DNA of 20,703 bases from a virus, in the IMG/VR virus record IMGVR_UViG_3300033148_000546, positions 1 to 20,703 of that record; one strand, given 5' to 3'. The notes under the pieces are model-generated. The model was given only the letters and a program-made list of their open reading frames with translations. It ran no database searches and was not told where the DNA came from. The translations under genes were made by a program, and so were the position numbers. Of the stretch, positions 482 to 20,202 are shown piece after piece (position 1 is the stretch's first letter; each line of letters starts with the position of its first letter).

Positions 482-3400
482 TTAATCCCTTGGTGCGCCA
501 GTTAATATCACCATTGGATTGTCTGTTTCCCCGTTCATTAAAGCCATATATCCGTCAAGCGTCCTATTGGCTTGGAATCCGGGGCCGGGAGCCAAATAAC
601 CAACCCCCTTAATAAGGTTGCTTACATCTCCTTCTGTGAAATCTCCAGTAGCCACATCAATAGTGGCTTTTGGTAATTTCGCCACCGTTTCCATTGCCGC
701 CTCGACAGGAGAAAGCCTTACGCTGAAGGCTTGAGTCTCTGGATCGAACTGTTTCAACATAGTGGGGAATATGTCCCTAAATACTGGAAACAGTTGTCCT
801 GCAAACAACAGTGAAGACCTTGCAGCACAAGTGGGTAGATTTTCAAAAATCTCATCCAGGCTATCGCCGCACTGTCCTCTAGCAATCGCTTCCAAGGTGG
901 CTGGAATAGTAATCACCCCCAAAGTCGTTAGCGTCATCCGTTGAGCTGCCTTTATTCGACGGCCTTCAGACCATTCTTTTGAGCTAATTCTTTGGCTTAC
1001 TACCATCTGCCCCAATTGAGCAGAGAAAAAATTGTAATACATAGTAATAATTCGCTTGAACTCCCCAGCAGCCCCCGCGCCACCAGAAATTTTAGCAAGA
1101 TCAACAGTTCTTCCGCTGCCCTGAGTCTGCCGAATAACTCTTCCCGCAAATTGTCTGGCTGCTTTAGAGTCGTTATTGTATATGCCCATGCCTTTTTCAA
1201 AGGCGGCAACATAAGCAGGCACAGTCACAGCCCTATCCATCATTCCCAGCCCTATAAGCCAAGTAGACATGCTTGGGCCAATATTTCCTTTACCTAAAAA
1301 TCTATTAGCTTCTGTACTTAAATCTCTGTCATAACCTCTTATCCTTTCCCTCATGTATTCATCTTCCATAACCCAATCGTATAATTTCCTTCCTTTCAAG
1401 CTTGTTAGCTTGCTCATGGCCTTTAAGAATCTGCCCGCACCAACTTGTCTAATCGCAGGAGAAACGCCAAGAACATTGATAGCTACCGTGTTAAAACTTG
1501 CTCCCATCATATTTATGAGAGTATTTCTTCTCGCGTACCATAAAGTCCTTTCCGTGAACCCTTGAGGAACAATTGGCTTTACAGCAACCTCCCTTACTCG
1601 CTGAAGTAAAGCGTTATAAACATCTGGACCCGATATGTTCTTTATTGCGTTACCAATCCGTTTGCTTTTCATTAAACGATAAGTGTCGGTAACTGCTTCT
1701 CTATGAGTAACGTCATGGATTGTTTCATTTATTTTATACGTCATACCAGTAAGTGACAGGTTTAGTGGCTTTTTAACCCTATCAAGCCTTTGCTTGCTGG
1801 CGCTCTGTCTTGTGGCGGCACTTGTAGCTGTTCCGCCCCGCAAATCTCTGATAGCATCGTCTGTATTATAATCGTATGCCCTTACATCAAGATCACCATC
1901 ATAAACAAGAGGAACATAACCACCAGTCAATATCCCTTTGGAAGTTTCATATGATAGAGCCTCTACTTTTTTTGCCGGAAGCCCCTTAGTTCTTTCATCA
2001 ACACCCTTTAATCTTGGCCATATAATAGTGTCAGACATCGCCCAAAATGCATTAACAAAATCAATGTCCCGCTTTTCTAGTGTTTCTAATATTTTCCGTA
2101 TCATAGGTTCCGAGTATTCGTTCCCATCAATCAGTCTTTGGCGACCTTCTGGATTTCCATAGTTCAAAGCGATAGCGATCCGCTTTTCTCTGGTAAAGTA
2201 TTCATCCCCAAGCTTTATTTTTGACGAAGAAAAGGCCAATCGCTCCTTAACTGAGTATGCTTTTGTGAACGGACTCAAAAAATCTGAAATCTCCTTCATT
2301 AAAGTTGACTGATCATCAGCGGCCTCGCTTAAACGGCCAAAAAGAGAATCAAATATCTGCTCCCCTTTACCGAGGGTCATCGATTCAAGAAGATTCTCCA
2401 AATTAAGGAATTCGGCATCAAACTTGCTTTTGAATTTACCGCTAAATTCTTTAATTGCTGGCCTAGTGTCTTTCTTGTAAGGAATAGGCTGGTCTTCTTC
2501 ATCAAAGACTTTAGGGTGAACCTCACGCAGCTCCCCGAGAATCGCCTGCTTCTCTTCTTCAAACATCATATTCCGGCGCTCTATGTACATATTCTGCTCA
2601 CGCCTAGCAAGATGCTCCAACTGTTTTAGTGTATCCCTCAAGCCCCGTACTTCTTCTAATGTCATTTCCTTATAGTGCTTCTTGAAACGCTCATCAGCCA
2701 TTTTCGGGTCAATATCAACATTTACAGCGTCTAATCTGTCTGCCTCGCTTTCCATAAACTTAGCAAGAGAATCAATCTCTTTTAAGGTCACGCTCTTTCG
2801 TAGGTCAAATCGAGCCAACAAAGCGTCTATCTGCTCAAGATATTCACCCCTCAGATTCTTTCTCGTACCCTCACGGTCAAATTTCTTGAGATAGCGAACC
2901 ATCTTCTCTGTCTCAGTTTGGGCATTATTAGCCGCACGGAAGAAGTGATTGTTCAAAACTTGAGCGCGTTTATGTTCAGCAGCCGAATCCCTATCACCTT
3001 GGATAATGGATTTCTCTGCATTCTTAGCAGCACGAGTTTCAGCAGCCGCATACTGGAAGGGGCGGATTTCTCTGATCTTCTTTCGGGATATAGCCTCTTC
3101 AGCGTATTGTTTAGCCGCTCTGGATAATACGTTTCCAGTAGCAGCTCTCTTGGTTAGGCTTGAAAGCTCTGTATGTAAGAATCGAGTATGTGCCTCGTTA
3201 TGGATGGCTTCCTCAGCAGCCCTCTCAATCACTACAGGGTCGGTTAGGTCTCCGTAGGTCTCCAGCATCCTTTCGTCTGTCAGGCGGTCTATATGAGTCT
3301 TCTGTGGCTCTGCTTGGCTAAGTCTCTGGATTAATTCATCGCCAGACGTAAATCCGAACATTTCAGCAACAATATCAGGATGTAAACCGTCTTTTCCGAG

Positions 3401-6400
3401 CATTCCCGTTTTGCCCGTACCGAGATTTCTCCAATCAACCTCAGCTTCCATGCCTCTAATTTTGTCAAAGTCTGCATTAACTGAGTATTGGGTATCCCCA
3501 CGCAGGTCTTTATCTAACTTATTTAGCAAGTCGTTAGCCGTATAAGGTTCAGGCAGGTATCCAAGCTGAGATAACTGTTCAGCCATTCCGTCAAAACTCA
3601 ATCCGCCTCGTTTAAATACACGTTTCCCGAATACAGGCTGTGCAGTAAAGTCAGCAGGGTCAATTCCTTGGGCCTCAGACTCTTCTCGACTAAGACCTCC
3701 GAGTTTTGCAATAGCCACTTGAAGACCGTCAATCTCTGAATCAACCACTTTAGGATCAGATTTAGCTCCCTCGTAAGTTTCTTCAACTGTTTTCAGGTCA
3801 ATCTTATGAATCTCAGCTTTAACATCGCTATCCAGTAATTCACCTTTCTTGGCAAAGTTCATCGCTTGGTAAGTTGTTTCCCGTGAAACCTCTTCAGCGA
3901 CTTCAGCCCTCATAGCCTTACGTTTAGCCTTAGCCTCCTTCTGAAGCTCTCTCAGGGCTTTTCCTTTGGCTTTGGATAACCACTTCATATCCCTGAGAGA
4001 ACGTGTCTGTAGCTGGCTCTCGCTCATTACGCGCCGTCTTTCGTCCATATTCTGATAGTCAATCCACTGCTTCTCGGTCATTCCGGCTTCTTCAGCACTC
4101 TCAAACAGAGGTTCGTAAGCGCGGGCAACTTCCTTTTCTCTAATCTGTTCTTTAGTAGCAAGCATTCTGTCAAATACCTGAGTAACTTCAGGGGTTAAAG
4201 TGACGTTTAATTTAGCGAGATTCTGATAGACGTTCAGCAGCCAATCCCTGAATCGGGAGAATAGAGACTGCATTTCAATGTTGGGCGATTTGCCCTCGAA
4301 TAAATAGGCTTCAAAGGCGCGGGCTACCTTTTCATGACCGTCTCGACGCTGCTCAAGAGTCATTCCATTCCACACTTCCAGATTCTCGACTTCAACAAAG
4401 TCAAGAAGTGTCTGCATGTCCTGAGCTATTTCAGGATTCTCAGCCGCTAATGTCTTGTAGGACTCAAAGAAAAAATGGCCGCTTTCATGGAGGAATGTAC
4501 TTAAATCAGCATTCTCTAATAAAGTAATCAATGCGCCATCATCGAACTGGATTTGGCCTCTGGCTTCTTGGCGGTAAATACTTGGATCGGTTGGATCGAA
4601 TGCGCCCACATTTTCTACCGATTTAATATTTGTTTTCCCAGAATCAAAAACATGAACATGCGCTGTTCCTTGCTCAATATCCATAGTCTTAAAGCGAGAT
4701 TCAGCATTTTTTAAAATAATAGCGTCATATCCAAGCTCTTCGATTATCTCCCCTATAAGATGGAACCCGATTAATTCCCCTTTCTCTCCTTCTGCGTACA
4801 TCATGCTTTCTGACTCGCGCATTAAGGCTTCAATAGAATCGCTAGTTGCCTCTGATCCCAATTCATATACCTGACCAGCAAGCTCCGCCGCATCAACATC
4901 ATTACGGGTTGCAACAACTTGAATCGCTTCAGCTAAAGGATGTTCCTGATCTGCCTCAATATCCCATCTAGCCTCATCAATTTCATCCTCATAGGTATCT
5001 ATATCGACCTCAACTTCTTTTACTGTTAAGTCGTTATTATCTGCCACCTGCTCAATGGCAAGTTTCTGTGTTTCTTCATTATCAACAAATTCGAGCCACT
5101 GCGTTTCACCACCAACAATGAATGGATTTTCCATTTTCACAAAAAGCTCTAGCGTTTGCTCACCCCCGCCAGACAATTCTCGTCGCGCTAATACTTTGCC
5201 TACTTCATAAGCTGCGTCTGAATCATCCATATCGGCAACTTGCGCACTTACAATTCTTAACTCGCTAGTGCTTCTATACAAAGAATCAAGAACTTCTTTT
5301 CGCCCTTTTTCATCAAACTGATCTTCTAATTTCTGCTGTAATTGTTCAGATCGTTGCTCTATACGAGAAGTTAAATCTGGCCCCTCGCCCGCATAATTGT
5401 CTGAAGCGTCTTGCTCACTTGAGGTAAAGTAATTAACAGCACCAAATTGGCCTTCAAAGTTCCCGCGAGTTGCGTCAAAAGCATCAAATTCATGGGTAGT
5501 TCCATGGTAAACCTTAACCACAAACGGGCCTTCTCCGGTAAAATCAAAATCATTAATCCCCCATCCTTCTATGACTTGTACATCTGCGCCGCCCGCCCAA
5601 TTCTTAAATTGCTCTGATTCTTCGTCTACTACAGGAGTTTGATACAAAGCAGCAACAGGCTCTCTGTACATAGATTCACTAATAGTAAAATCTTTCTTTC
5701 TGCCTTTATTCTCAACAAAGCCAAAACGCTTATAGAATTTAACGAGCCTAGCTCTTGATGTGGTGCCTTGAAAGTCATCTTTTACTGCTGGAGTAAGGGT
5801 TACTCGCAGACCTTTGCTGTCCGCAAAATCAATAATTGCTTGCATGGCTTTTGTGCCTACACCCTCTTTTCGCTCTCCTTTTGGGACAATGATAGTATCG
5901 AGCTTTAAGTCGCCATTGGACTCAAACAAGTTGAGACTTTTAAGTCCTAACGACTTTTCCAAATTATCAGAAAAAGTCTGAACATCCCCCGCCTTTAGTG
6001 CGGCCTGCTCATAAGCCTCACCCGCTAAAACCTTTTCTAATCTAACTCTATTCTCAGCTTGGTCGGCACGATGAGCCTCATGTAACTTAGCCATGTAAGC
6101 GTCTACTTCTTCAGGCGGGATAACCATTGTTACGCTGGAATCTTCTTGCATTTTAGTAAATGATTCTTTAAGAGTTGCCCCAGGCTTAGTAGCTGGTCTG
6201 AACCCATTCGCATAAAATAATGCAACGGATGATTCGCTTGAAGCGGCTGCGGATATTTCAGCAGGGTCATATAACCTCAATACATCGGAAAGTATTTTAC
6301 GGCCTACACCTTTGCCACGTTCAGATTCTTCTACTACAAAGTCTGTAATAGAATTTTTACGAGGCGCAAATTCTGCATCTTCCATGACTGTGATATGTGC

Positions 6401-8131
6401 AGCATCCGTTGAATATTGCTTCCCTAGTGATGTGTCAGTAACATTCAAACCCAATTCTTCAGGGGTGCGTTGCTCTAACACCATATCTCCGATAACTGGG
6501 GCACCACGAACCTCAAGCCCGAATTGCTCATAGACCTCTTCAGGTGTTTTGCCAATACGATCTGCTACGGTTACGGCAAAGGCTTTGTGAAGTTGAGAGT
6601 ATTTCTCAGCCGCTTCCTCAGTAAATCTACCCGTCTTAACAATCTGCTCTTTAATCTTGGTCGCTACCGTCTCAGCCGAAGTGCGAAATTCACTTTCCAC
6701 TTCTTGCTCTTCCAAGATACGTTCAGCCTCAGCTTCAAACTGTTCATTGCCTTGTTCTACCCATTCGTTAGCCTCCTTAGCATTCATTCCGTCCATATCG
6801 TTTCTAACCACTTCGGTCAGTTGGTCATGGTATTCCGACAGATAAGTTAAGTAGTCTGATTTCTGGATAACGACATCACCCTGAACCGCAAGGGCTTCGG
6901 TGATAGTTTCCTGTAACTCTGGAGGAAGAGTCTCTAAAATCTCTGGATTGGACTGAAAGAATACCTCAGCATCTTCAGGGGACAAGAAAACTTCCTCTTC
7001 AGCGCCCACAACCTCGTCGAGAAATTTCTTCATCTCTTCAGGGGAGCGAGACTTTAATTTAGTCTCGTTAACAGTTTCAATCTGACCATCTAAAGCCTCT
7101 TGCTTATTTAAAGCATCTTCGGACTTGTTCACATCACTACCGTAACGACTTAACGCGCCAGCACCACCAACTATCCCACTCTGAACTATCGTGGCTATAA
7201 GCGTCTCATAGGCCGCTTCAGGACGTTCCTTAAAATAATCGCCCCAAGTCTTATCAGGGTTTGCTATTGCTGTGTCTATGGCGCTTTGGACAATCTCTGC
7301 AACTTGTTCGCTTGGTAATTCTCTTGCTAAAAGCCCTGCAAGGAACTCCCCCGCGCCTACCTTGCCAAACTTACTCACAAGAAAGCCCATAGGCATTAAT
7401 TCAGTAGCGACTTCAACAGCACCTTCACCAACACTTCCCAAAAGAGCCATCTCAGGAGCCGCCCCACGCGCCCTGTATTTAGGATAAGCTTCGGCCTCCA
7501 CACCCACGCCCATTGCCATTAATGCAGGAACAGGGCTTTTAGCAATAACCGAAGCAATCAAAGCAGGGGCTTGACGGGTCAGACTTGTCAGCCCTCCGTA
7601 AACGCCACGCATAGTCGAGGTTTCAAACTCAGGGTCAAATCTTTGTGTTTTAGTCTCAGCCGCCGCAAACTTCTGTTCAGCGGATTTTCTCATTCTCTCA
7701 GACCCAATAAGATCAGCCCACTGCATTCGTATACCTTGGCGAATCTTTTCAAATCCTTCCACCGCGCCGACATGAAGACCTTTCATGGTTGAGATATATC
7801 CAGGCTCAGGCCCGCGAATACGAGAGAATGAATTCTCTACTTTCGACAAAGCGTCCACATCATCATGTGCAACGGAAGCAAAGTTAGGGTTTTGGAATGA
7901 TTTCTTTAAATACTCGGTACTCTGTAGCTTCTCGTATATTTCACGGTCTGAGACTATCTTGTTTATCTCAGGATTTCTTTCGGCCAAGTCTACAGGCACG
8001 TTTAACTTCTTAGCAGACCTTTGAATTTGAGCGTGAGCATCTGGATTCTGGTTAGAGCCAAAATCTATAGAAGTCTGGAGCATCCTACCGCTCCCGGTTA
8101 GCTCCTTGTAAATTTCCTCATCTGTTCTCAT
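482..8131 (-). CDS. Giant polyvalent virion/ejection protein (gp16 position) with two GNAT-like, one ART-like and one zincin-like domain
   Basis: This 2549-aa protein is nearly twice the length of T7 gp16, whose place it takes after gp13-, gp14- and gp15-like genes. It starts at ATG in an ATGA overlap with the gp15-like gene. Visible regions are: a conserved N-terminus (about 20-105); hydrophobic, Gly/Ala-rich, possibly membrane-active segments (175-330); GNAT-like domain 1 (569-660) with RGKGVG at 605-610 and a late FYANGF; GNAT-like domain 2 (728-825) with RKEGVG at 754-759 and FYKRFGF at 799-805; an ADP-ribosyltransferase-like domain (870-1180) with YHGT at 875-878, NYFTSS at about 900 and GYDAII at 1134; a zincin-like domain (1190-1340) with HESGH at 1215-1219 and AFEAYL at 1272-1277; a conserved polyvalent-type region (1440-1560); a helical part (1650-1960); and a conserved C-terminal phage region (2125-2430). 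No soluble lytic transglycosylase motif was found. Ejection into the host is inferred from position. Enzyme activities are motif-based. Confidence 0.85.
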   Translation of the reverse strand: MRTDEEIYKELTGSGRMLQTSIDFGSNQNPDAHAQIQRSAKKLNVPVDLAERNPEINKIVSDREIYEKLQSTEYLKKSFQNPNFASVAHDDVDALSKVENSFSRIRGPEPGYISTMKGLHVGAVEGFEKIRQGIRMQWADLIGSERMRKSAEQKFAAAETKTQRFDPEFETSTMRGVYGGLTSLTRQAPALIASVIAKSPVPALMAMGVGVEAEAYPKYRARGAAPEMALLGSVGEGAVEVATELMPMGFLVSKFGKVGAGEFLAGLLARELPSEQVAEIVQSAIDTAIANPDKTWGDYFKERPEAAYETLIATIVQSGIVGGAGALSRYGSDVNKSEDALNKQEALDGQIETVNETKLKSRSPEEMKKFLDEVVGAEEEVFLSPEDAEVFFQSNPEILETLPPELQETITEALAVQGDVVIQKSDYLTYLSEYHDQLTEVVRNDMDGMNAKEANEWVEQGNEQFEAEAERILEEQEVESEFRTSAETVATKIKEQIVKTGRFTEEAAEKYSQLHKAFAVTVADRIGKTPEEVYEQFGLEVRGAPVIGDMVLEQRTPEELGLNVTDTSLGKQYSTDAAHITVMEDAEFAPRKNSITDFVVEESERGKGVGRKILSDVLRLYDPAEISAAASSESSVALFYANGFRPATKPGATLKESFTKMQEDSSVTMVIPPEEVDAYMAKLHEAHRADQAENRVRLEKVLAGEAYEQAALKAGDVQTFSDNLEKSLGLKSLNLFESNGDLKLDTIIVPKGERKEGVGTKAMQAIIDFADSKGLRVTLTPAVKDDFQGTTSRARLVKFYKRFGFVENKGRKKDFTISESMYREPVAALYQTPVVDEESEQFKNWAGGADVQVIEGWGINDFDFTGEGPFVVKVYHGTTHEFDAFDATRGNFEGQFGAVNYFTSSEQDASDNYAGEGPDLTSRIEQRSEQLQQKLEDQFDEKGRKEVLDSLYRSTSELRIVSAQVADMDDSDAAYEVGKVLARRELSGGGEQTLELFVKMENPFIVGGETQWLEFVDNEETQKLAIEQVADNNDLTVKEVEVDIDTYEDEIDEARWDIEADQEHPLAEAIQVVATRNDVDAAELAGQVYELGSEATSDSIEALMRESESMMYAEGEKGELIGFHLIGEIIEELGYDAIILKNAESRFKTMDIEQGTAHVHVFDSGKTNIKSVENVGAFDPTDPSIYRQEARGQIQFDDGALITLLENADLSTFLHESGHFFFESYKTLAAENPEIAQDMQTLLDFVEVENLEVWNGMTLEQRRDGHEKVARAFEAYLFEGKSPNIEMQSLFSRFRDWLLNVYQNLAKLNVTLTPEVTQVFDRMLATKEQIREKEVARAYEPLFESAEEAGMTEKQWIDYQNMDERRRVMSESQLQTRSLRDMKWLSKAKGKALRELQKEAKAKRKAMRAEVAEEVSRETTYQAMNFAKKGELLDSDVKAEIHKIDLKTVEETYEGAKSDPKVVDSEIDGLQVAIAKLGGLSREESEAQGIDPADFTAQPVFGKRVFKRGGLSFDGMAEQLSQLGYLPEPYTANDLLNKLDKDLRGDTQYSVNADFDKIRGMEAEVDWRNLGTGKTGMLGKDGLHPDIVAEMFGFTSGDELIQRLSQAEPQKTHIDRLTDERMLETYGDLTDPVVIERAAEEAIHNEAHTRFLHTELSSLTKRAATGNVLSRAAKQYAEEAISRKKIREIRPFQYAAAETRAAKNAEKSIIQGDRDSAAEHKRAQVLNNHFFRAANNAQTETEKMVRYLKKFDREGTRKNLRGEYLEQIDALLARFDLRKSVTLKEIDSLAKFMESEADRLDAVNVDIDPKMADERFKKHYKEMTLEEVRGLRDTLKQLEHLARREQNMYIERRNMMFEEEKQAILGELREVHPKVFDEEDQPIPYKKDTRPAIKEFSGKFKSKFDAEFLNLENLLESMTLGKGEQIFDSLFGRLSEAADDQSTLMKEISDFLSPFTKAYSVKERLAFSSSKIKLGDEYFTREKRIAIALNYGNPEGRQRLIDGNEYSEPMIRKILETLEKRDIDFVNAFWAMSDTIIWPRLKGVDERTKGLPAKKVEALSYETSKGILTGGYVPLVYDGDLDVRAYDYNTDDAIRDLRGGTATSAATRQSASKQRLDRVKKPLNLSLTGMTYKINETIHDVTHREAVTDTYRLMKSKRIGNAIKNISGPDVYNALLQRVREVAVKPIVPQGFTERTLWYARRNTLINMMGASFNTVAINVLGVSPAIRQVGAGRFLKAMSKLTSLKGRKLYDWVMEDEYMRERIRGYDRDLSTEANRFLGKGNIGPSMSTWLIGLGMMDRAVTVPAYVAAFEKGMGIYNNDSKAARQFAGRVIRQTQGSGRTVDLAKISGGAGAAGEFKRIITMYYNFFSAQLGQMVVSQRISSKEWSEGRRIKAAQRMTLTTLGVITIPATLEAIARGQCGDSLDEIFENLPTCAARSSLLFAGQLFPVFRDIFPTMLKQFDPETQAFSVRLSPVEAAMETVAKLPKATIDVATGDFTEGDVSNLIKGVGYLAPGPGFQANRTLDGYMALMNGETDNPMVILTGAPRD

Positions 8132-9741
8132 TTCTGCTGAAGGCTCTTGTACTCAGCTAGGATATTGTTCTCTGTAACCTCTGTTCCGTCCCTAGATAAT
8201 CTCAAGGCAAGCTCATCAACCATGTATGAAGGAACGCCCTCGACCTCAATGATTCCAGCGGCTATTTCAGTATTCCACCAGTAACCACGCTCCCTGATTA
8301 CATCAATAGAAAGCCTTTCGGTGATCTCCTGAATTTCTTTGACGGAAGGCTCTTTCCCTGTAGAGGCTTGCAAGGACTCGATTTCCTGATCAACACGCTT
8401 ATAGAAAGCCCTGACCTTATCGCCAGCACTTCCATCTTTCGTAGCTTCTTTAGGCTCTAAACCTATGCCAGCAGCAGCCCTGCTCATAACCTGAGTTTTC
8501 GTTGCTGATATAATCAATTTCTTCTCGTCTGTCTGGAGATTAATAATCTGCTTACGGTCACTTTCAGAAAGATTGTAAGCAAGCGGATTCATCTCTTGAA
8601 AGGCTTTAGGATCATCTCTTGCCATTAATTTAAGTTTGTAGTAATCCGCTCCACCATTAGGAACATCTTCACCTTTAGCATCAAGTTTTGCTCTATTCTG
8701 CAAAGAAGCTCTTTCCTTACCGTCCATCCCATCTAATACGGAAGCTGGAATCAGGTCATATGCGTCTTCAGAAGAAACACCGTTATCAATTGAATCAGAA
8801 TAGGTACTCCACGCACTCTCACCAAAAGCCTTTTGTTCACGGTCTTTGATCTGATTAGCCTCTGAATATCTCGCAGTAACACGCGCTAAGGCCGCATCTC
8901 TGACCTCTGAGGGTAATTTCCTTGCCTTGGCCCTTGCTTCAGTCTCACTCAGACCTTCATTCACATAGCCATCCACCTCTTCCTGAGATTGTTCTTTAAT
9001 TCCACCGGCTTTTAGCAGACGTTTAATATCATCCTGTCTATCACCTAGAATATTCTTTTGGTTCTTCTCGAAGTACGATTTAGCCAGTTGATAATTACCA
9101 TCATCATTGGCTTGTATAATTACGCCTTCGTGGAGGTTCGATACATTAGACTTGATTAAAATCTTCCGAGCATCACCCTTCAGTCCAAGACGATCAGCCT
9201 CAGCCTCACTCAGCTTTTGAGTCCTTAACAAAGACCCTTTAACCACAGCAGGATTGTCATAATCAGATGAAGCGATGTCTAATTCAGCCGCCACACCACC
9301 ATCAAAGGTCTGTTTCTGGAAAGCACTCTGCTCTTTAGTTGTGTGGTTTATCAGGTTTTCCGAGTAACCCAGTCTACGGACAGAAGATCGGCGATCAAAC
9401 GCTTCTCTCTGGTCGTCATTTCTCAGCGTTTCTGATATGTTTTTTGAAGCCTCGTCAAACCGAGCCGTATAATCGTTGTAAAAGTCTTCCCCAACATCAC
9501 CAGACTTAACGCGAGTGAATCCGTCATCACCTTTACTGAGGCGAATCATATCCTGCTGGAGTCGTGTATCAGCGTCTTCTACTCGATACTTGTCATCTTC
9601 AATCTTCTTCTTGGCTAAAACCCCACCAAGCCCAGAAATCGTATCTCCAATCTTTGCAGGCGCGGGCGCTTCATAGGCAGGCGTTATCCCACCAAATCCG
9701 GGTGTAACTCGTTGTCCTGATGTATCCGGTAATTTAGGCAT
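8128..9741 (-). CDS. Internal virion / ejection protein, gp15-like
   Basis: This is a 537-aa charged, helix-rich protein without obvious membrane segments or enzyme motifs. Its opening (MPKLPDTSGQRVTPGFGG) is the basic, Pro/Gly-rich N-terminus common to phage internal virion proteins of this class. The frame is open upstream to a GTG at 9765. The ATG at 9741 is preferred because a purine-rich GGGAAGA lies about 9 bases before it and it overlaps the upstream stop codon by only a few bases. By position, length and composition it corresponds to T7 gp15, an ejectosome component that forms part of the DNA channel across the periplasm. It overlaps the giant protein by ATGA, so the two are probably translationally coupled. 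The identification rests on order and general character rather than on a diagnostic motif. Confidence 0.75.
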   Translation of the reverse strand: MPKLPDTSGQRVTPGFGGITPAYEAPAPAKIGDTISGLGGVLAKKKIEDDKYRVEDADTRLQQDMIRLSKGDDGFTRVKSGDVGEDFYNDYTARFDEASKNISETLRNDDQREAFDRRSSVRRLGYSENLINHTTKEQSAFQKQTFDGGVAAELDIASSDYDNPAVVKGSLLRTQKLSEAEADRLGLKGDARKILIKSNVSNLHEGVIIQANDDGNYQLAKSYFEKNQKNILGDRQDDIKRLLKAGGIKEQSQEEVDGYVNEGLSETEARAKARKLPSEVRDAALARVTARYSEANQIKDREQKAFGESAWSTYSDSIDNGVSSEDAYDLIPASVLDGMDGKERASLQNRAKLDAKGEDVPNGGADYYKLKLMARDDPKAFQEMNPLAYNLSESDRKQIINLQTDEKKLIISATKTQVMSRAAAGIGLEPKEATKDGSAGDKVRAFYKRVDQEIESLQASTGKEPSVKEIQEITERLSIDVIRERGYWWNTEIAAGIIEVEGVPSYMVDELALRLSRDGTEVTENNILAEYKSLQQK

Positions 9742-10168
9742 TAGCGTACATCTTCCCTGCACCACTTAAAACGGTGGCATAAGATTTAGTTTTACTCACA
9801 GCTTGCGTTTCCTGACCAAATTTCTCAGCCAATGAGCCTTCGTATTTCAATTTCTCCGCTTTGGACTCCGCTTCGTACATCGCCACATTCGCCTCATAAA
9901 CGCCTTCGCCATGAATATCAGCAATCAGGTTATCAATGTCCTGAGCCGCTCCACCTGCGGAAGCTACAGCTAAAGCGCGAGACGCCATCAAATCTGATTG
10001 CCTTCCCGCTTCTAGTGCTTTTCTCTGCCCCACAGCCACTTCCTGAGTAGCTGAGACCTCATTCAAGACCTTTTGCACCTTGCCTCTACGCATTGACTGA
10101 TAACCGGCCTGCTGTTCCTCACCGGCGCTTAGAACCGTTCCCACGGCCATAAAGATTAGACTCGCCAT
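9734..10168 (-). CDS. Internal virion protein, gp14-like
   Basis: This 144-aa protein starts at ATG 10168 with a strong ribosome binding site (GAGGTGA) and overlaps the preceding gene by 13 bases. The N-terminus (about residues 3-16) is hydrophobic. The rest is Ala-, Glu- and Gln-rich and helical, with a central segment (about 45-75: RKALEAG ... SRALAVASAGGAA) of the kind seen in small phage internal core proteins that lie before the two large ejection proteins. This fits T7 gp14, the outer-membrane part of the ejectosome. Its last bases overlap the start of the gp15-like gene. No catalytic residues are visible. Function is inferred from context, composition and the hydrophobic N-terminus. 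Confidence 0.7.
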   Translation of the reverse strand: MASLIFMAVGTVLSAGEEQQAGYQSMRRGKVQKVLNEVSATQEVAVGQRKALEAGRQSDLMASRALAVASAGGAAQDIDNLIADIHGEGVYEANVAMYEAESKAEKLKYEGSLAEKFGQETQAVSKTKSYATVLSGAGKMYANA

Positions 10169-13124: not shown

Positions 13125-13768
13125 CAGCCGATCAACTGATTGCGGGAGCCACGGTCTCTATGTCCTCCTAAGCGAGAGCGGGATTGTACGAAGTTGCCCG
13201 GTGCTGGGAATTGTGTGGGGCCAGCCATCGCATCTTTATTCTTGGCTATCTTGAGTTTCTTTTCTTCCCACTTAATAACAGAATTGCGCTTTTTCTCATC
13301 AGAGGTAAGCTTGAATATAACCTTTGAGGCAAAGTGCGCCGCCACAAAGTCTGCATAAGTAGCAGGATATAGAGATAAATCACTCCCATAAGAGGAATCG
13401 TTAGATACATATCGGACGTAAATTTCATCAATATCGGCATACCAATACCCCGTCTCATCGACGTATCTCAAAAGGGGGGTATTAAAGTATTCATCAGAAC
13501 AAACAGCAGAAGTAATCACCCAGTCATCAGGCTTGGTAAAAGCTCGCCGATTCCCATAACTAGGCGTTATGTCGGCATCGTAATCAATACGAACTGTTCT
13601 CATGGCAAACTTCCATTGTGCCATCTCAAGACATGCCTCAATACCGTCATTATCCCAAACTGTATCAAGCAAGCGACGAGGCTCACGCTCCTCAGTCAGA
13701 GAGGCAAGCTGCCTTTCTCCGCAAATCATTAGCGCGGAATTATATATCTTGAGACGGGACGTACTCAT
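13124..13768 (-). CDS. Tail tubular protein A-like (gp11, adaptor/gatekeeper)
   Basis: This 214-aa protein is close in size to T7 gp11 (about 196 aa). It shows the family pattern: an N-terminal helix (SRLKIYNSALMICGE), a helix ending in EMAQWKFAMRT, then a FTKPDDW segment, a YVSND loop and PATYADFVAAHFASKV, and a late KIAKNKDAMAGP with a basic tail. It would sit between portal and nozzle and close the head after packaging. It starts at ATG 13768 in an ATGA overlap with the upstream gene, and it ends in a one-base overlap with the nozzle gene. The Arg/Gly-rich C-terminus (about 190-214) is somewhat longer than usual. Confidence 0.85.
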   Translation of the reverse strand: MSTSRLKIYNSALMICGERQLASLTEEREPRRLLDTVWDNDGIEACLEMAQWKFAMRTVRIDYDADITPSYGNRRAFTKPDDWVITSAVCSDEYFNTPLLRYVDETGYWYADIDEIYVRYVSNDSSYGSDLSLYPATYADFVAAHFASKVIFKLTSDEKKRNSVIKWEEKKLKIAKNKDAMAGPTQFPAPGNFVQSRSRLGGHRDRGSRNQLIG

Positions 13769-14217
13769 GCTTCAATGGTTTTCTTGTAGCCTGCAAGGAA
13801 TTTGTTAGCCTCATCCTTTTCCATCTTATTCTTAATTACAGTGCTGTCAGACTTACGAATGACACTGAATTTGTTTACCGGGCCTTTCCATAGGACTTCA
13901 AACTCAGCCATTTCTTCTTCGGCTTGAGTCATTGATACGTCTGAATTAGTCAATGAATGGAAACTTAATTCTTTAACCTTGGCCCATGTACGATCACAGG
14001 CAAGGATTAGAAGTTCTGCAAAATAAACTCCGTCATCTACTCGAACTTCAATACGATCATAAGGACGGAATTGTGCGGCTACGTGTGACCAGTAGCTAGG
14101 ATTCATAATATCTTCTTTGGTCGTACCCTGTTCTGCGGTTACTACCCACAGAGTACGGACGAAATCACCGCTCTTCATGCGGTTCATGTTGACCTTTAAA
14201 CCTTTATTTTCACTCAC
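13765..14217 (-). CDS. Conserved phage structural-region protein of unknown function
   Basis: This 150-aa protein starts at GTG 14217, supported by a strong ribosome binding site (TGAGGAG, 6 bases away) just after the terminator. It belongs to a type often found between capsid and tail genes. Its features are YWSHVAAQFRPYDRIEVRVDDG (about residues 42-63), then YFAELLILACDRTWAKV (about 65-81), a middle Thr/Gln/Glu-rich stretch and LWKGPVNKFSVIRKSD (about 109-124). No catalytic motif is visible. The first half looks like a small beta-barrel and the end is charged. Position suggests a minor head, neck or tail role, but no function is known to me. Confidence 0.75.
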   Translation of the reverse strand: MSENKGLKVNMNRMKSGDFVRTLWVVTAEQGTTKEDIMNPSYWSHVAAQFRPYDRIEVRVDDGVYFAELLILACDRTWAKVKELSFHSLTNSDVSMTQAEEEMAEFEVLWKGPVNKFSVIRKSDSTVIKNKMEKDEANKFLAGYKKTIEA

Positions 14218-14231
14218 GATATTCTCCTCAG

Positions 14232-14265
14232 AAAAAAGGGAGCCAAGGGTTTCCCCAAGACTCCC
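14232..14265 (-). terminator. Rho-independent terminator after the capsid block
   Basis: Read on the minus strand, GGGAG and CTCCC close a hairpin. Inside it lie a U-G and a C-G pair, a 2-by-2 internal loop, then GGG and CCC around a GAAA loop. Six T residues follow immediately (14232-14237). This is a textbook intrinsic terminator, placed 6 bases after the stop of the 114-aa head gene. T7 has its main late terminator at the same relative place, after gene 10. It probably lowers but does not abolish expression of the tail genes. Confidence 0.85.
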
Positions 14266-14627: not shown

Positions 14628-15476
14628 TTAAGCGTAAGCAGAGCCATCGTGAGTAGCCACGACAACGCCTGAGTTTTGCAAGAGAACACCACCCATATAC
14701 ATAGTGCAACGTGCATATGAATAATCCTGTTCGTCGTCATAACCGACCGCAACGCCCATACCAGAGGTATCAGCAGCATGACCAGTTGAAGACTTGTGAT
14801 ACAAGAACGATTTCTCGCTATTGGTTCCTTTGCCCGGCAGATTTGGATGGGAAATAATCAATGTATTCCTCCACCGATATGCCATGGGTTGATCTTTCCA
14901 TTCTGCGCTATCGCCAGCATAAGGCCGTACCGGTGTGTAATCCGCGCTAGCGAACTCCGGTGCTTGCTCAAGATAGGCAAGGAATGAAGGTTGGCACAAC
15001 AAGGTAATATTTGAATCCCATGGAACAGAGGCATTCTGTAGCTTCACAGACATACTCTGGAACAGGTCAACATTAGGAACCGTAGTAGTGCCACCAACCG
15101 TTACCGTTCCAGTATTCAAGACAGTAGTGATTTGGTCGTCAATCTTACGATTCACTGTACCCATTGTGGTTTCCTGCATGATTCGACGTTGATCACCCTG
15201 AGAGGCGAAGATGTTGAATCCTGTCTTCCGAACTAAGTCATGCTCTTCTGTCAGTGTTGCAGTGTTTTGGGTTAAGTTATCGGCACGAGCGGGGATTAGT
15301 CCGTTTACGCCTCGGGTTACTGTCTCTGCTGTGCCTGAATCTGCAACAAGAAAGACAGCTTGATTACCCTTAATTACCGCCTCGGTAGTCACCGTGGCCC
15401 GAAGCAACGAAGATCGCTGCTCAAAGCCGTGGATATACTCTTGGCGATACTGGGTTTGCATTGCTGTATCAGCCAT
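14628..15476 (-). CDS. Major capsid protein
   Basis: This 282-aa protein matches a widespread capsid family of podovirus- and siphovirus-like phages. Diagnostic segments are YIHGFEQRSSLLRATVT (about residues 14-30), VTRGVNGLIPARADNLTQ (53-70), then EEHDLVRKTGFNIFASQGDQRR (77-98), and near the end GYDDEQDYSYARCTMYMGG followed by LLQNSGVVV. An HK97-type fold is expected. It starts at ATG 15476 with a very good ribosome binding site (AAAGGAG) and has a 181-base leader with a promoter-like sequence, consistent with high expression. Scaffold lies upstream and the small head protein downstream. No protease gene is present nearby and there is no clear N-terminal propeptide, in keeping with a separate scaffold. 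Confidence 0.88.
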   Translation of the reverse strand: MADTAMQTQYRQEYIHGFEQRSSLLRATVTTEAVIKGNQAVFLVADSGTAETVTRGVNGLIPARADNLTQNTATLTEEHDLVRKTGFNIFASQGDQRRIMQETTMGTVNRKIDDQITTVLNTGTVTVGGTTTVPNVDLFQSMSVKLQNASVPWDSNITLLCQPSFLAYLEQAPEFASADYTPVRPYAGDSAEWKDQPMAYRWRNTLIISHPNLPGKGTNSEKSFLYHKSSTGHAADTSGMGVAVGYDDEQDYSYARCTMYMGGVLLQNSGVVVATHDGSAYA

Positions 15477-15657
15477 AATTAGCTCCTTTGCTAAGTTCGT
15501 TTGAACCTTACACTGGGGAAGCCATCATGGTTTTAATCAGGGGAGCCGTTAAAGGGGCTGACGCTGACCGATCCGGGGCCGTGCTTTGGTGTTAGTATGG
15601 ATTACTCCATAGTTGAGTTTATAGTTTAGTATTAATATGTTAGCAACCGCTAATGCG
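15477..15657 (-). other. Capsid gene leader and promoter region (non-coding)
   Basis: This 181-base gap between scaffold and capsid is the longest in the window. In the direction of transcription it holds the repeated 15-base element overlapping the scaffold stop, an AT-rich stretch with a sigma-70-like promoter, a GC-rich central block (about 15546-15585) with several short inverted repeats (AGCC/GGCT, CCGG), and a strong ribosome binding site. No open frame of note exists. The GC-rich block could form a 5' hairpin that stabilises the capsid mRNA. Confidence 0.6.
15618..15646 (-). promoter_or_regulatory. Sigma-70-like promoter candidate for the capsid gene
   Basis: On the minus strand TTGCTA (15641-15646, 4 of 6 consensus) is separated by exactly 17 bases from TATAAA (15618-15623, 5 of 6). 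Spacing and AT-rich context are good. The -35 hexamer overlaps the end of the repeated 15-base element. The stretch also contains TAATAC and CTATA words recalling the T7 RNA polymerase promoter, but with wrong spacing. Whether host or phage polymerase uses it is unknown. Confidence 0.5.
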
Positions 15658-15658
15658 T
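15644..15658 (-). promoter_or_regulatory. Repeated 15-base intergenic element, copy 1
   Basis: On the minus strand this reads ACGCATTAGCGGTTG and begins within the scaffold stop codon. It differs at one base from the copy at 401-415. It lies 168 bases before the capsid ATG and touches the -35 hexamer of the promoter candidate. A weak hairpin (AACGC with GCGGTT, one bulge) is possible, but no T-run follows, so it is not a terminator. Confidence 0.45.
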
Positions 15659-16506
15659 TACTTCATTTTTTCCTTGCCTTCAAGAAGGTCTCTGTACCGC
15701 TGCTGATTACCTTCAGCTTTTGGCCCTTTCCAGTATTCTGAGTTCTTATTGCCCATCATACTTTCAAAGTTCTTCATCTCGTCCTCAATAGCGCCCTTGA
15801 GGTTATCACCGGCACCTGGGACTAATGTGGTAGCAGGATTAATGTCGAGAGCCATATCAATCAGCCATTTCAAAGCCCCCTGATCAGAAGACAAGGGAGA
15901 ACCATCTGCAAATCTGGCTCCCCATATCTTATCCTTTACTCCATCTGGAGCGGTATCAAGAAGACCGTTAATCCGGTTTAAATTAGCGCGATACTCTGTA
16001 CCCCAGTCAGCACGTAGAGCATCTTCTGTTTCAGCTTGAATCTTGGCATCATTCTCAGCCATTGCTTCGACAATCTTCTCTTCGTTCTGGTAATGCCATT
16101 CAATAGCCTCTTTGGCCATATTGGCAGGCATGTTCTTTCCGTGAGCAAACTCAAGAAAGTCGTCGATAATCGGTTTATCGTCCTCACCAACCACAAGACC
16201 GTCATCAAATGTCAGATCGTACTTATCGGCAGAGGCAGGAATACCATTACCCTCTCGCCATTCGGCCTTTGCTTCGTCTGTGCCTTCTGTGGGGAACTCT
16301 GAGACCTTTTTATACTCGCCTGACCGCATCTTATTATTAGCCGCGATAAGGCCATCAAACGCCGCGCTAGGACTTGCATAGCGGGATAAAGCATTTAGTT
16401 TGCCTTCATCCTCGCCAGCATAGTTCTCACGCCATGTATCAGGGTACTGTGCAGGCTCTACAACCTCTTCCACCACTTCTTCGATAACTTCTGCTGCTTC
16501 AGCCAT
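15658..16506 (-). CDS. Capsid assembly scaffold protein
   Basis: This 282-aa, strongly acidic protein lies directly before the major capsid gene, the usual place for a scaffold. The N-terminus is a Glu/Val-rich stretch (residues 3-18). The middle is helical and charged (AEAIEWHYQNEEKIVEAMAEND-like, about 130-175). The end is basic and helical (EYWKGPKAEGNQQ, then RYRDLLEGKEKMK), as in podovirus scaffolds, where the C-terminal helix docks on the coat protein. It starts at ATG 16506 with a strong ribosome binding site (GAGGAG), one base after the previous stop. It is expected to guide procapsid assembly and then leave the head. The call rests on position, charge and the C-terminal pattern. Confidence 0.8.
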   Translation of the reverse strand: MAEAAEVIEEVVEEVVEPAQYPDTWRENYAGEDEGKLNALSRYASPSAAFDGLIAANNKMRSGEYKKVSEFPTEGTDEAKAEWREGNGIPASADKYDLTFDDGLVVGEDDKPIIDDFLEFAHGKNMPANMAKEAIEWHYQNEEKIVEAMAENDAKIQAETEDALRADWGTEYRANLNRINGLLDTAPDGVKDKIWGARFADGSPLSSDQGALKWLIDMALDINPATTLVPGAGDNLKGAIEDEMKNFESMMGNKNSEYWKGPKAEGNQQRYRDLLEGKEKMK

Positions 16507-18372: not shown

Positions 18373-18695
18373 CCTAATGTCTCACTTGCGCCAGAGAGGA
18401 TAGTAGAAGCTCGTCCACCTCTACGCTGCCTGCGTCTGGATGCAGTCTTCCTACGCTCCGCCTTACCTGTTTCTGGATCAGGAATAGGTTTAATTCGTCC
18501 TCTTGCTGCTATCTTTTCCTTAGCGGCTGCTTGAGTAGCCTTACGCTCTTCACGTACATCAGGAGCTTCTAGCTTGCCACCTTTCTTGAATGTTTCGCCG
18601 CCAGGATGAAATTTAGCTTTATCCATAACATTCATAACATCCGCGTCATACCCTAACTGTACTAATGTATCCTTAATGTTGCCTTTCTTACCCAT
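18369..18695 (-). CDS. Small basic protein between terminase and portal
   Basis: This 108-aa protein starts at ATG 18695 with a good ribosome binding site (AGGAGAAGG) in a TAATG overlap with the terminase stop. The N-terminal half is mixed. The C-terminal half is very basic (AERRKTASRRRQRRGG, about 78-93) and ends in RASTILSGASETLG. A basic stretch followed by an S/T-I/V-L ... LG ending recurs in small phage proteins encoded beside portal genes. Its charge suggests nucleic acid or terminase contact. It could be a head-tail or packaging accessory; no function is known to me. Confidence 0.65.
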   Translation of the reverse strand: MGKKGNIKDTLVQLGYDADVMNVMDKAKFHPGGETFKKGGKLEAPDVREERKATQAAAKEKIAARGRIKPIPDPETGKAERRKTASRRRQRRGGRASTILSGASETLG

Positions 18696-20041
18696 TACCT
18701 TCTCCTTCCGCTAATTACTTTAGGAGATTGGCCACGCTTGTTAAACGTCCTCTTCTGCTCAATCCATTCTAATGCTGAATTACTTTCTTTGGCCCCATAG
18801 TACCAAGCCATAATTACTGCGTCTCCATCGTCTGTAGATCGACCTAAATCTTTGCAGACATCTTCTTTTGACTTCGCTGCTATGCCGTTAGGCGTTACTT
18901 TGTAGGTTGCTGCCGTTAAATCACCTAGAACCTTGGCTCCGGGCGGTAATGATATTGGCGAGCCACCGGGCTGACCGGGATCAAGTGCTTCACGAAACAA
19001 CCATAATGCCGCTGTACGGGTATTGGTGAACTTTAACTTACCATCCCTGCTTCTTCGAGTAGACTTCTCAGCACCCTTGTATCCTTGTACGTCAACCTCA
19101 TTCTCATTTAGTATCTCGTACATTGAGCCGCCGTAACCGCCACCAAGATCAACAACGATAGTTGCGCTATTCCTACGGTTAGCAATAACGTGCCCAGCAC
19201 TCACGCTACCAATTCTATCTTTAGGGATTGATTTAGCAGGTATTGAGACTATTGGCGCGTACCAGCCATCATATCTTGGCGCTATCACCAATGGATCACT
19301 GCCACCACCAGTAGCATCTACACCTATCGAACACATAGGAATGCCTCGCGGGGGATCAGGTCGCCATCTCTGTTGGGCTAATCTCACCCATTCAGTCGGT
19401 ATGACCTGATTCGGAGCATCCCTGAATGAAGTCTTGAACCCACCCATGAGGACAGACCGAAGCTCTTCAGGCATAGAATCTAATTCTTTGTCGTAATCAG
19501 TCCCGTGTAAAAATGGATTATCTTGTACAGAAGCAGGGATATACGTGTATGACTTTGGAGTGATGTGCTTCTTTCTATCTTCCATCCACACAGGTTCAGG
19601 GCCATCAACCCAAACGTGTTTGTCTTCAGTGTCCAGTACAGCGTATCTCAGCTCTCCCGGTTTAGCCGGGTCTGGATGCTTATCGTCTAGCCATGGAGCA
19701 AACCATTCCACAACCCACAAACCTTCAGCAGATAATGGAGGATTGGTCGCAAGCACCACACGTTTCCTCTGATTGGGATCATCTGCACAACGCAACCAGC
19801 CCATTAATGTTCTTATTTGTATCTCGGCAAAGTGAGTAGCTTCGTCAATACCAATTAAGTCATGTGGATTACCCTGCCAATGTTGCTCGTCGCCTACCTT
19901 GGAAGCTGCACCAAAATCAATCACCTTCCCGTCTGGCCGCCTTAGCTTAGGAGGAGGGCTGCCATTAAACCCATCTTTACCACCGTTGAACTTCTGAGCT
20001 TCCTCCAGCAAGTGACCAAGATCGGTGTACTGCCTACGCAT
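18695..20041 (-). CDS. terL: Terminase large subunit, C-terminal part lacking Walker A
   Basis: This 448-codon frame holds most of a terminase large subunit. It has Walker B (DLIGIDEATHF, D66-E67), the LATNPP coupling motif (97-102) and the RNase H-like nuclease with GVDATGG (D242), VVDLGGGYGG (D298) and a DDGDAVIMAW end (D405/D407). Family members of this type are about 520-560 aa and carry a P-loop about 30 residues before RRQYTDL. Here the frame begins at MRRQYTDL, with no ribosome binding site before the ATG, while the matching N-terminus lies in another frame just upstream (20202-20042). The P-loop itself is in neither. As written it cannot give an active packaging ATPase. A deletion of about 80 bases (length 1 modulo 3) or an assembly error is likely. 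Confidence 0.88.
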   Translation of the reverse strand: MRRQYTDLGHLLEEAQKFNGGKDGFNGSPPPKLRRPDGKVIDFGAASKVGDEQHWQGNPHDLIGIDEATHFAEIQIRTLMGWLRCADDPNQRKRVVLATNPPLSAEGLWVVEWFAPWLDDKHPDPAKPGELRYAVLDTEDKHVWVDGPEPVWMEDRKKHITPKSYTYIPASVQDNPFLHGTDYDKELDSMPEELRSVLMGGFKTSFRDAPNQVIPTEWVRLAQQRWRPDPPRGIPMCSIGVDATGGGSDPLVIAPRYDGWYAPIVSIPAKSIPKDRIGSVSAGHVIANRRNSATIVVDLGGGYGGSMYEILNENEVDVQGYKGAEKSTRRSRDGKLKFTNTRTAALWLFREALDPGQPGGSPISLPPGAKVLGDLTAATYKVTPNGIAAKSKEDVCKDLGRSTDDGDAVIMAWYYGAKESNSALEWIEQKRTFNKRGQSPKVISGRRR

Positions 20042-20202
20042 AAAACGTCTGCTTTAGAGTGGTATGCATCCGTCTGAGGGCCGGGGCTAGGTATCCACGC
20101 CATATCCTTGGTTGCTGCCATAACCTCAGCAAATAGAGTCTCCCTGCCCTCTGGAGGCAAGGCTTCTATCTTCTCAAGAACTTCGGCAAGCATTCCGGGC
20201 AT
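19942..20202 (-). pseudogene. terL: Terminase large subunit N-terminal fragment, out of frame
   Basis: The first 54 codons (20202 to about 20041) encode the N-terminus of the terminase: a helix (MLAEVLEKIEALPPEGRE), then WIPSPGPQTDAYHSKADVL, the segment that normally runs directly into the P-loop. After ADVL the frame reads nonsense (CVGSTPILV...) over the region that encodes RRQYTDL in the neighbouring frame, and it ends at 19942. The ATG at 20202 overlaps the upstream stop (TAATG), so this is the original gene start. The fragment is annotated as part of a broken terL. An 86-aa product is possible but would have no expected function. Confidence 0.8.

Follow-up and report, generated by a model that had tools for sequence, protein, structure and literature searches.

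The large terminase and its P-loop

The Walker A motif is the ATP-binding motif of the phage large terminase subunit, TerL, and the P-loop that carries it is a known hot spot for TerL inteins, according to PMC5050341. In the mycobacteriophage examples of that paper, the intein is located in the P-loop, between the Lys and the Thr. On the side of sequence assembly, the closest described case is the local misassembly of QUAST, which PMC6350398 defines by a join where less than 1 kb is lost.

The DNA studied here, called the window, is a virus record of 20,703 bases represented by a single contig. Its genes, mostly on the minus strand, form a phage head and tail module. When compared with phage TerL (PHROG 2 and 979, Pfam Terminase_6N), two fragments of the window are collinear with the intact protein and are recognized by the families, with similarity over both the ATPase and the nuclease parts, but the gene as assembled has no in-frame Walker A segment (GGxxGGGK[ST]) and its frame is broken. 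As in a QUAST local misassembly, in the definition cited, the two flanks are on the same strand and in order, and a short stretch between them is lost; a second assembly of the phage adds four cases. Unlike the QUAST setting, the judgement here comes from relatives and the second assembly and not from a reference genome of the phage. The sequence comparisons make it very probable that the missing P-loop was lost during metagenome assembly.

The frame break in terL

The N-terminal part of the gene (20041-20202, minus strand; 54 codons) is the open reading frame that begins at 20202, runs from MPGMLAEV to TDAYHSKADVL, where it departs from the terminase frame before reaching the P-loop. It is 81% identical over 53 amino acids to locus L117 on contig 3300033153_001470, which is the same contig as that of the relative L002. 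The terminase frame picks up again in the open reading frame from 20041 (minus strand) with MRRQYTDL (MRRQYTDLGHLLEEAQKF), and the remaining part of terL, RRQYTDL to the end of the gene (18695-20041, minus strand), contains the Walker B-like and nuclease parts. This C-terminal part is 89% identical to L002 over 448 amino acids and 46-100% identical to 21 viral loci. At 18698-20041 it matches the terminase large subunit families phrog_2 (1.3e-20) and phrog_979 (2.9e-20), and it scores 22.4 bits against PF03237, for which the cut-off is 22. The TerL of L002 had no match in Pfam at 0.001, yet it is recognized by PHROGs; a sequence search of the PDB with the same protein returned nothing at an E value of 0.001. 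Both parts of the gene show purifying selection in comparison with L002 (dN 0.133 and dS 1.126 for the N-terminal part; dN 0.081 and dS 1.381 for the C-terminal part). Against L003, the dS of the C-terminal part is saturated.

MAFFT alignment with L002, L003, L004 and L006 leaves just one gap in the window, 82 columns wide, at 20041/20040 on the minus strand. It is bordered by ...GACGTTTTA on one side and by TGCGTAGG... on the other, and the sequences are in register on both sides. The four relatives are of equal length across this stretch, in which the 82 bases encode LYGGEPGGGKSSLLLGLA(L/F)N(K/N)HRRSLI and one additional base, that is, 27 residues including GGEPGGGKS. The Walker A motif is therefore gone from the terL of the window as assembled. 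The edges of the gap are found two codons ahead of the GG of the motif and about 18 codons beyond its K, and the cut falls within a codon, which leaves a shared base and shifts the frame. An earlier note on this DNA had placed the frame break between ...YHSKADVL and MRRQYTDL and had proposed that a Walker A segment of about 27 residues, 79 or 82 bases long, was absent, a length of 1 modulo 3 for which a one-base error is no remedy. The open reading frames and the alignment confirm the break and settle the length at 82 bases. The statement that the P-loop is "precisely missing" was too strong, as the edges are not fitted to the motif.

No Shine-Dalgarno-like stretch was found by eye ahead of the ATG at 20041, and for this reason the ATG is very likely not a genuine start. 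With the exception of terL, the long open reading frames of the window are all open. Downstream of terL are the portal protein (PF12236), the major head or capsid protein (phrog_3437) and tail and late proteins. The order used for comparison is terL, a small open reading frame, portal, an open reading frame, a scaffold-like open reading frame and capsid, in which the portal and the capsid were matched; the open reading frame at 15658-16506 has no Pfam match and its scaffold-like role is a guess. A product of 2549 amino acids, encoded at 482-8131 on the minus strand, includes stretches that resemble acetyltransferases and matches phrog_9880, a family of unknown function, over a long region. It may be one of the injected virion proteins of podovirus type, which is also a guess.

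The P-loop in related phages

Nineteen of the 21 viral loci reach the P-loop, which is contiguous in 17 and interrupted by an in-frame intein in two (L008 and L019). A larger census was obtained by a profile-based scan with two patterns, one just ahead of the P-loop and one within it. In the best 80 of its 442 confirmed terL loci, ranked by match, a contiguous GGxxGGGK[ST] in one frame is present in 77, an in-frame intein in three and a deletion in none, although the ranking and the patterns are biased towards intact genes. Three census contigs duplicate L002, L003 and L012, all with intact terL, and further contigs overlap the set of 21 loci. Since none of these 80 related loci has such a deletion, the deletion in the terL of the window is beyond chance. 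The 30-mer that spans the junction has no exact match in any other viral contig searched, and a blastn search of the phages collection with 804 bases gave no match. No relative with the same terminase arrangement lacking a P-loop was found among the homologous phages examined.

The possibility that the arrangement works as it stands, with a terL fragment without its own P-loop and packaging driven by another ATPase, was one of three options listed in the earlier note. In its favour there is nothing beyond the contig itself. The motif GGxxGGGK[ST] occurs at no other place in the six frames of the window, and of two looser [AG]xxxxGK[ST] strings, one is in an open stretch of 17 codons and the other inside the 2549-amino-acid open reading frame; neither is similar to the lost motif. 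Within the window and the 5,307 bases that the second assembly adds to it, which still leave the genome incomplete, no other ATPase or P-loop of the terL type was seen. The role of Walker A in TerL, as given in PMC5050341, the ATG at 20041 and the absence of the arrangement from relatives all argue against a working variant, which is extremely improbable. Among the observations that would undo its reading, the earlier note had named the same arrangement in homologous phages and a P-loop encoded elsewhere, and neither was found in the sequences described above.

A second assembly of the same phage

A second contig in IMG/VR, IMGVR_UViG_3300033143_000660 (24,987 bases; here G001, the same as loci L031/L032), differs from positions 1-20006 of the window by 3 mismatches and is 99.9-100% identical to it. 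By this measure of sequence, G001 and the window are the same phage. A 34-mer in the capsid gene had G001 as its sole match, and no third assembly of the phage was found.

Four stretches present in the window, all given here on the minus strand, are missing in G001. The loss of 131 bases at 15425-15555 deprives the major capsid gene (14628-15476, phrog_3437) of its start, and the loss of 61 bases at 14188-14248 (58-61, with an edge ambiguity of 3 bases) takes away the start of the open reading frame at 13765-14217. The loss of 63 bases at 10062-10124 is in frame and inside the open reading frame at 9734-10168, and that of 71 bases at 294-364 shifts the frame just past the start of the open reading frame beginning at 369. 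The joins show microhomology of 0, 3, 0 and 0 bases, respectively; the value of 3 is taken from overlapping BLAST segments, and the script output for the same site is 1/0. The version of the window is matched at the 131-base site by L033/L034, a co-occurring phage, and at the 61-base site by L034. At the 63- and 71-base sites, L033/L034 gave no match.

From what the two contigs contain, a living relative that differs by 3 substitutions and has four such losses is not credible. Assembly is the best explanation of these losses and, to judge from their clean edges and size, they are of the same kind as the gap in terL. They establish that small repeat-free losses occur in assemblies of this phage. 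Furthermore, contig G001 ends at position 20006 of the window (minus strand), 35 bases past the terL junction. Because two assemblies fail at one place, this place in terL appears to be hard to assemble. With clean losses of 61-131 bases at four sites of a near-identical contig, G001 is also a warning about the contigs of dataset 3300033143.

Inteins at this site in relatives

Several relatives carry an intein inside the stretch that is lost from the window. In L053 (the same as L008), L101 and L110 an in-frame intein is inserted between hmm positions 65 and 66, GGGK|S/T, and the TerL intein of L019 (3-2258) also lies between the Walker A Lys and Ser/Thr. LAGLIDADG or homing endonuclease domains were identified in L008 and L019 with Pfam. 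The intein of L008 (L008:1649-4330) starts with Gly-Leu-Ala-Leu-Asp, not with Cys or Ser, and ends with PTHN|T; it is presumably of the class 3 type. A different intein, with a Cys start and a TGN|S end, is found in L118 (L118:1483-3156; contig 3300033153_001186, from the dataset of L002), where the site in the P-loop region of TerL is FYGG|C...N|SAGGGKT. The inteins of L008, L101, L110 and L019 are in the position of the TerL1-a type P-loop inteins described in PMC5050341. In contrast to this type, the window has no intein, which enters only as a possible reason for the break in the assembly. No in-frame intein splice blocks are present at the Walker A position of the window, whereas they are present in L008, L019, L101, L110 and L118.

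These relatives suggest a narrower form of the assembly explanation, by which the phage has a P-loop intein, or its population is mixed for one, and the assembler broke at this site and joined the outer ends. The lost sequence would then be the 82 bases and about 1 kb more. An intein would account for two assemblies failing at one spot, and the site is the intein hot spot of TerL that PMC5050341 describes. On the other hand, no intein joined to the flanks of this phage was found: the exact 27-mer to the left and the exact 31-mer to the right of the junction had no match in viral contigs, G001 reaching neither flank, and a scan with the N-terminal part found only relatives with at most 81% identity. 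The 77 of 80 census relatives have no intein, and the four other sites of loss in G001 require none. The intein is thus a rather unlikely part of the explanation.

A possible deletion in the phage itself

A defective genome was another option of the earlier note. A real deletion in a defective phage, such as a decaying prophage or a packaging-deficient helper-dependent variant, would have come to dominate the assembly. The deletion is indeed encoded in the deposited contig, and the join is clean with the correct neighbours on both sides. Decay of the genome is, however, difficult to reconcile with a module that is otherwise open and intact and with the purifying selection on both parts of terL. 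By the same reasoning G001 would be another genome, defective in a different way, in which four genes are broken or shortened although it has only 3 substitutions; this is very unlikely. Moreover, a protein scan of bacterial genome contigs with the C-terminal part produced 14 pattern matches, none of which (0/14) was confirmed, so that no relative in a bacterial contig was found. A defective phage as the source of the gap is, on balance, highly unlikely.

The 82-base loss brackets the GGGK|S/T intein site of the relatives, and a real deletion might also be a scar left when intein homing failed. In that case, a homing endonuclease specific for the intein-free Walker A site would have cut it, and end-joining would have removed about 30 and 52 bases on its two sides; the resulting packaging-dead genomes would be carried by intact sister phages. 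The probability of such an event is slight indeed.

Origin of the gap

Of a defective genome, an assembly effect and a real variant, the assembly loss is by far the best explanation, and it is strengthened by the losses in G001, by the end of that contig and by the purifying selection on both terL parts, while the other two options are not favoured. The gap is most probably not a real biological feature, and only a minor share of this estimate goes to an assembly loss with an intein. The assembly loss is favoured because four like losses without edge repeats are found in G001 in other genes; these losses and the junction 30-mer without an exact match in viral contigs are what was found of the marks of an artefact. 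The contig ends that flank a hard spot in terL were probably joined and the bases between them dropped, presumably by the joining step of the assembler. The hard spot could have arisen from low coverage, from branching with co-occurring relatives or from an intein polymorphism, and with an intein present more than 82 bases would be missing.

A counterpoint is that the five sites of loss have no obvious common composition or hairpin. The GC content of the four segments lost from G001 is 0.397-0.524, compared with 0.452 for the window, and the folding energy per base of the lost segments ranges from -0.227 to -0.342, the background value being -0.239 (sd 0.039). Folding is stronger than average in the 131- and 58-base segments and not in the two others, and the L002 P-loop segment has an average folding energy. 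Hairpins or GC content as the common cause of the losses were rejected because of these mixed folding energies and ordinary GC content. The window has no direct repeat of 18 bases and no inverted repeat of 16 bases.

Another conceivable cause of the breaks is branching with a co-occurring relative. An exact word of 32 bases is common to the window (19968-19999) and to the co-occurring phage L033/L034, close to the junction and to the end of G001, and a shared exact word of 29 bases starts precisely where the 61-base loss has its right edge. The number of words of at least 20 bases shared with L033/L034 is 23-25, and since most of them are away from the losses, branching behind the breaks is only a possibility.

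Losses of this sort are not general in IMG/VR, as there is no N in 124 loci (700,377 bases, some overlapping or from the same contig) and none of the 80 terL loci is broken. The contigs of L009 and L002, which are close neighbours and come from the two datasets, show no gap against each other over 5,323 bases.

Implications

Losses of 60-130 bases that have clean edges, keep the order and involve no N or repeats can hide in otherwise near-identical viral contigs and can mimic a missing catalytic motif or a missing gene start. A comparison of near-identical contigs from sister assemblies reveals them cheaply. Were the deletion real, the phage would have a packaging motor without an ATP-binding loop, or its terminase P-loop would offer the first trace of homing that failed. 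The evidence nowhere favours a real deletion over an assembly loss, and since the same kind of loss is found in other genes of G001, no unusual phage biology need be assumed. It is almost certain that terL is complete in the phage and includes an ordinary Walker A motif, with or without an intein.
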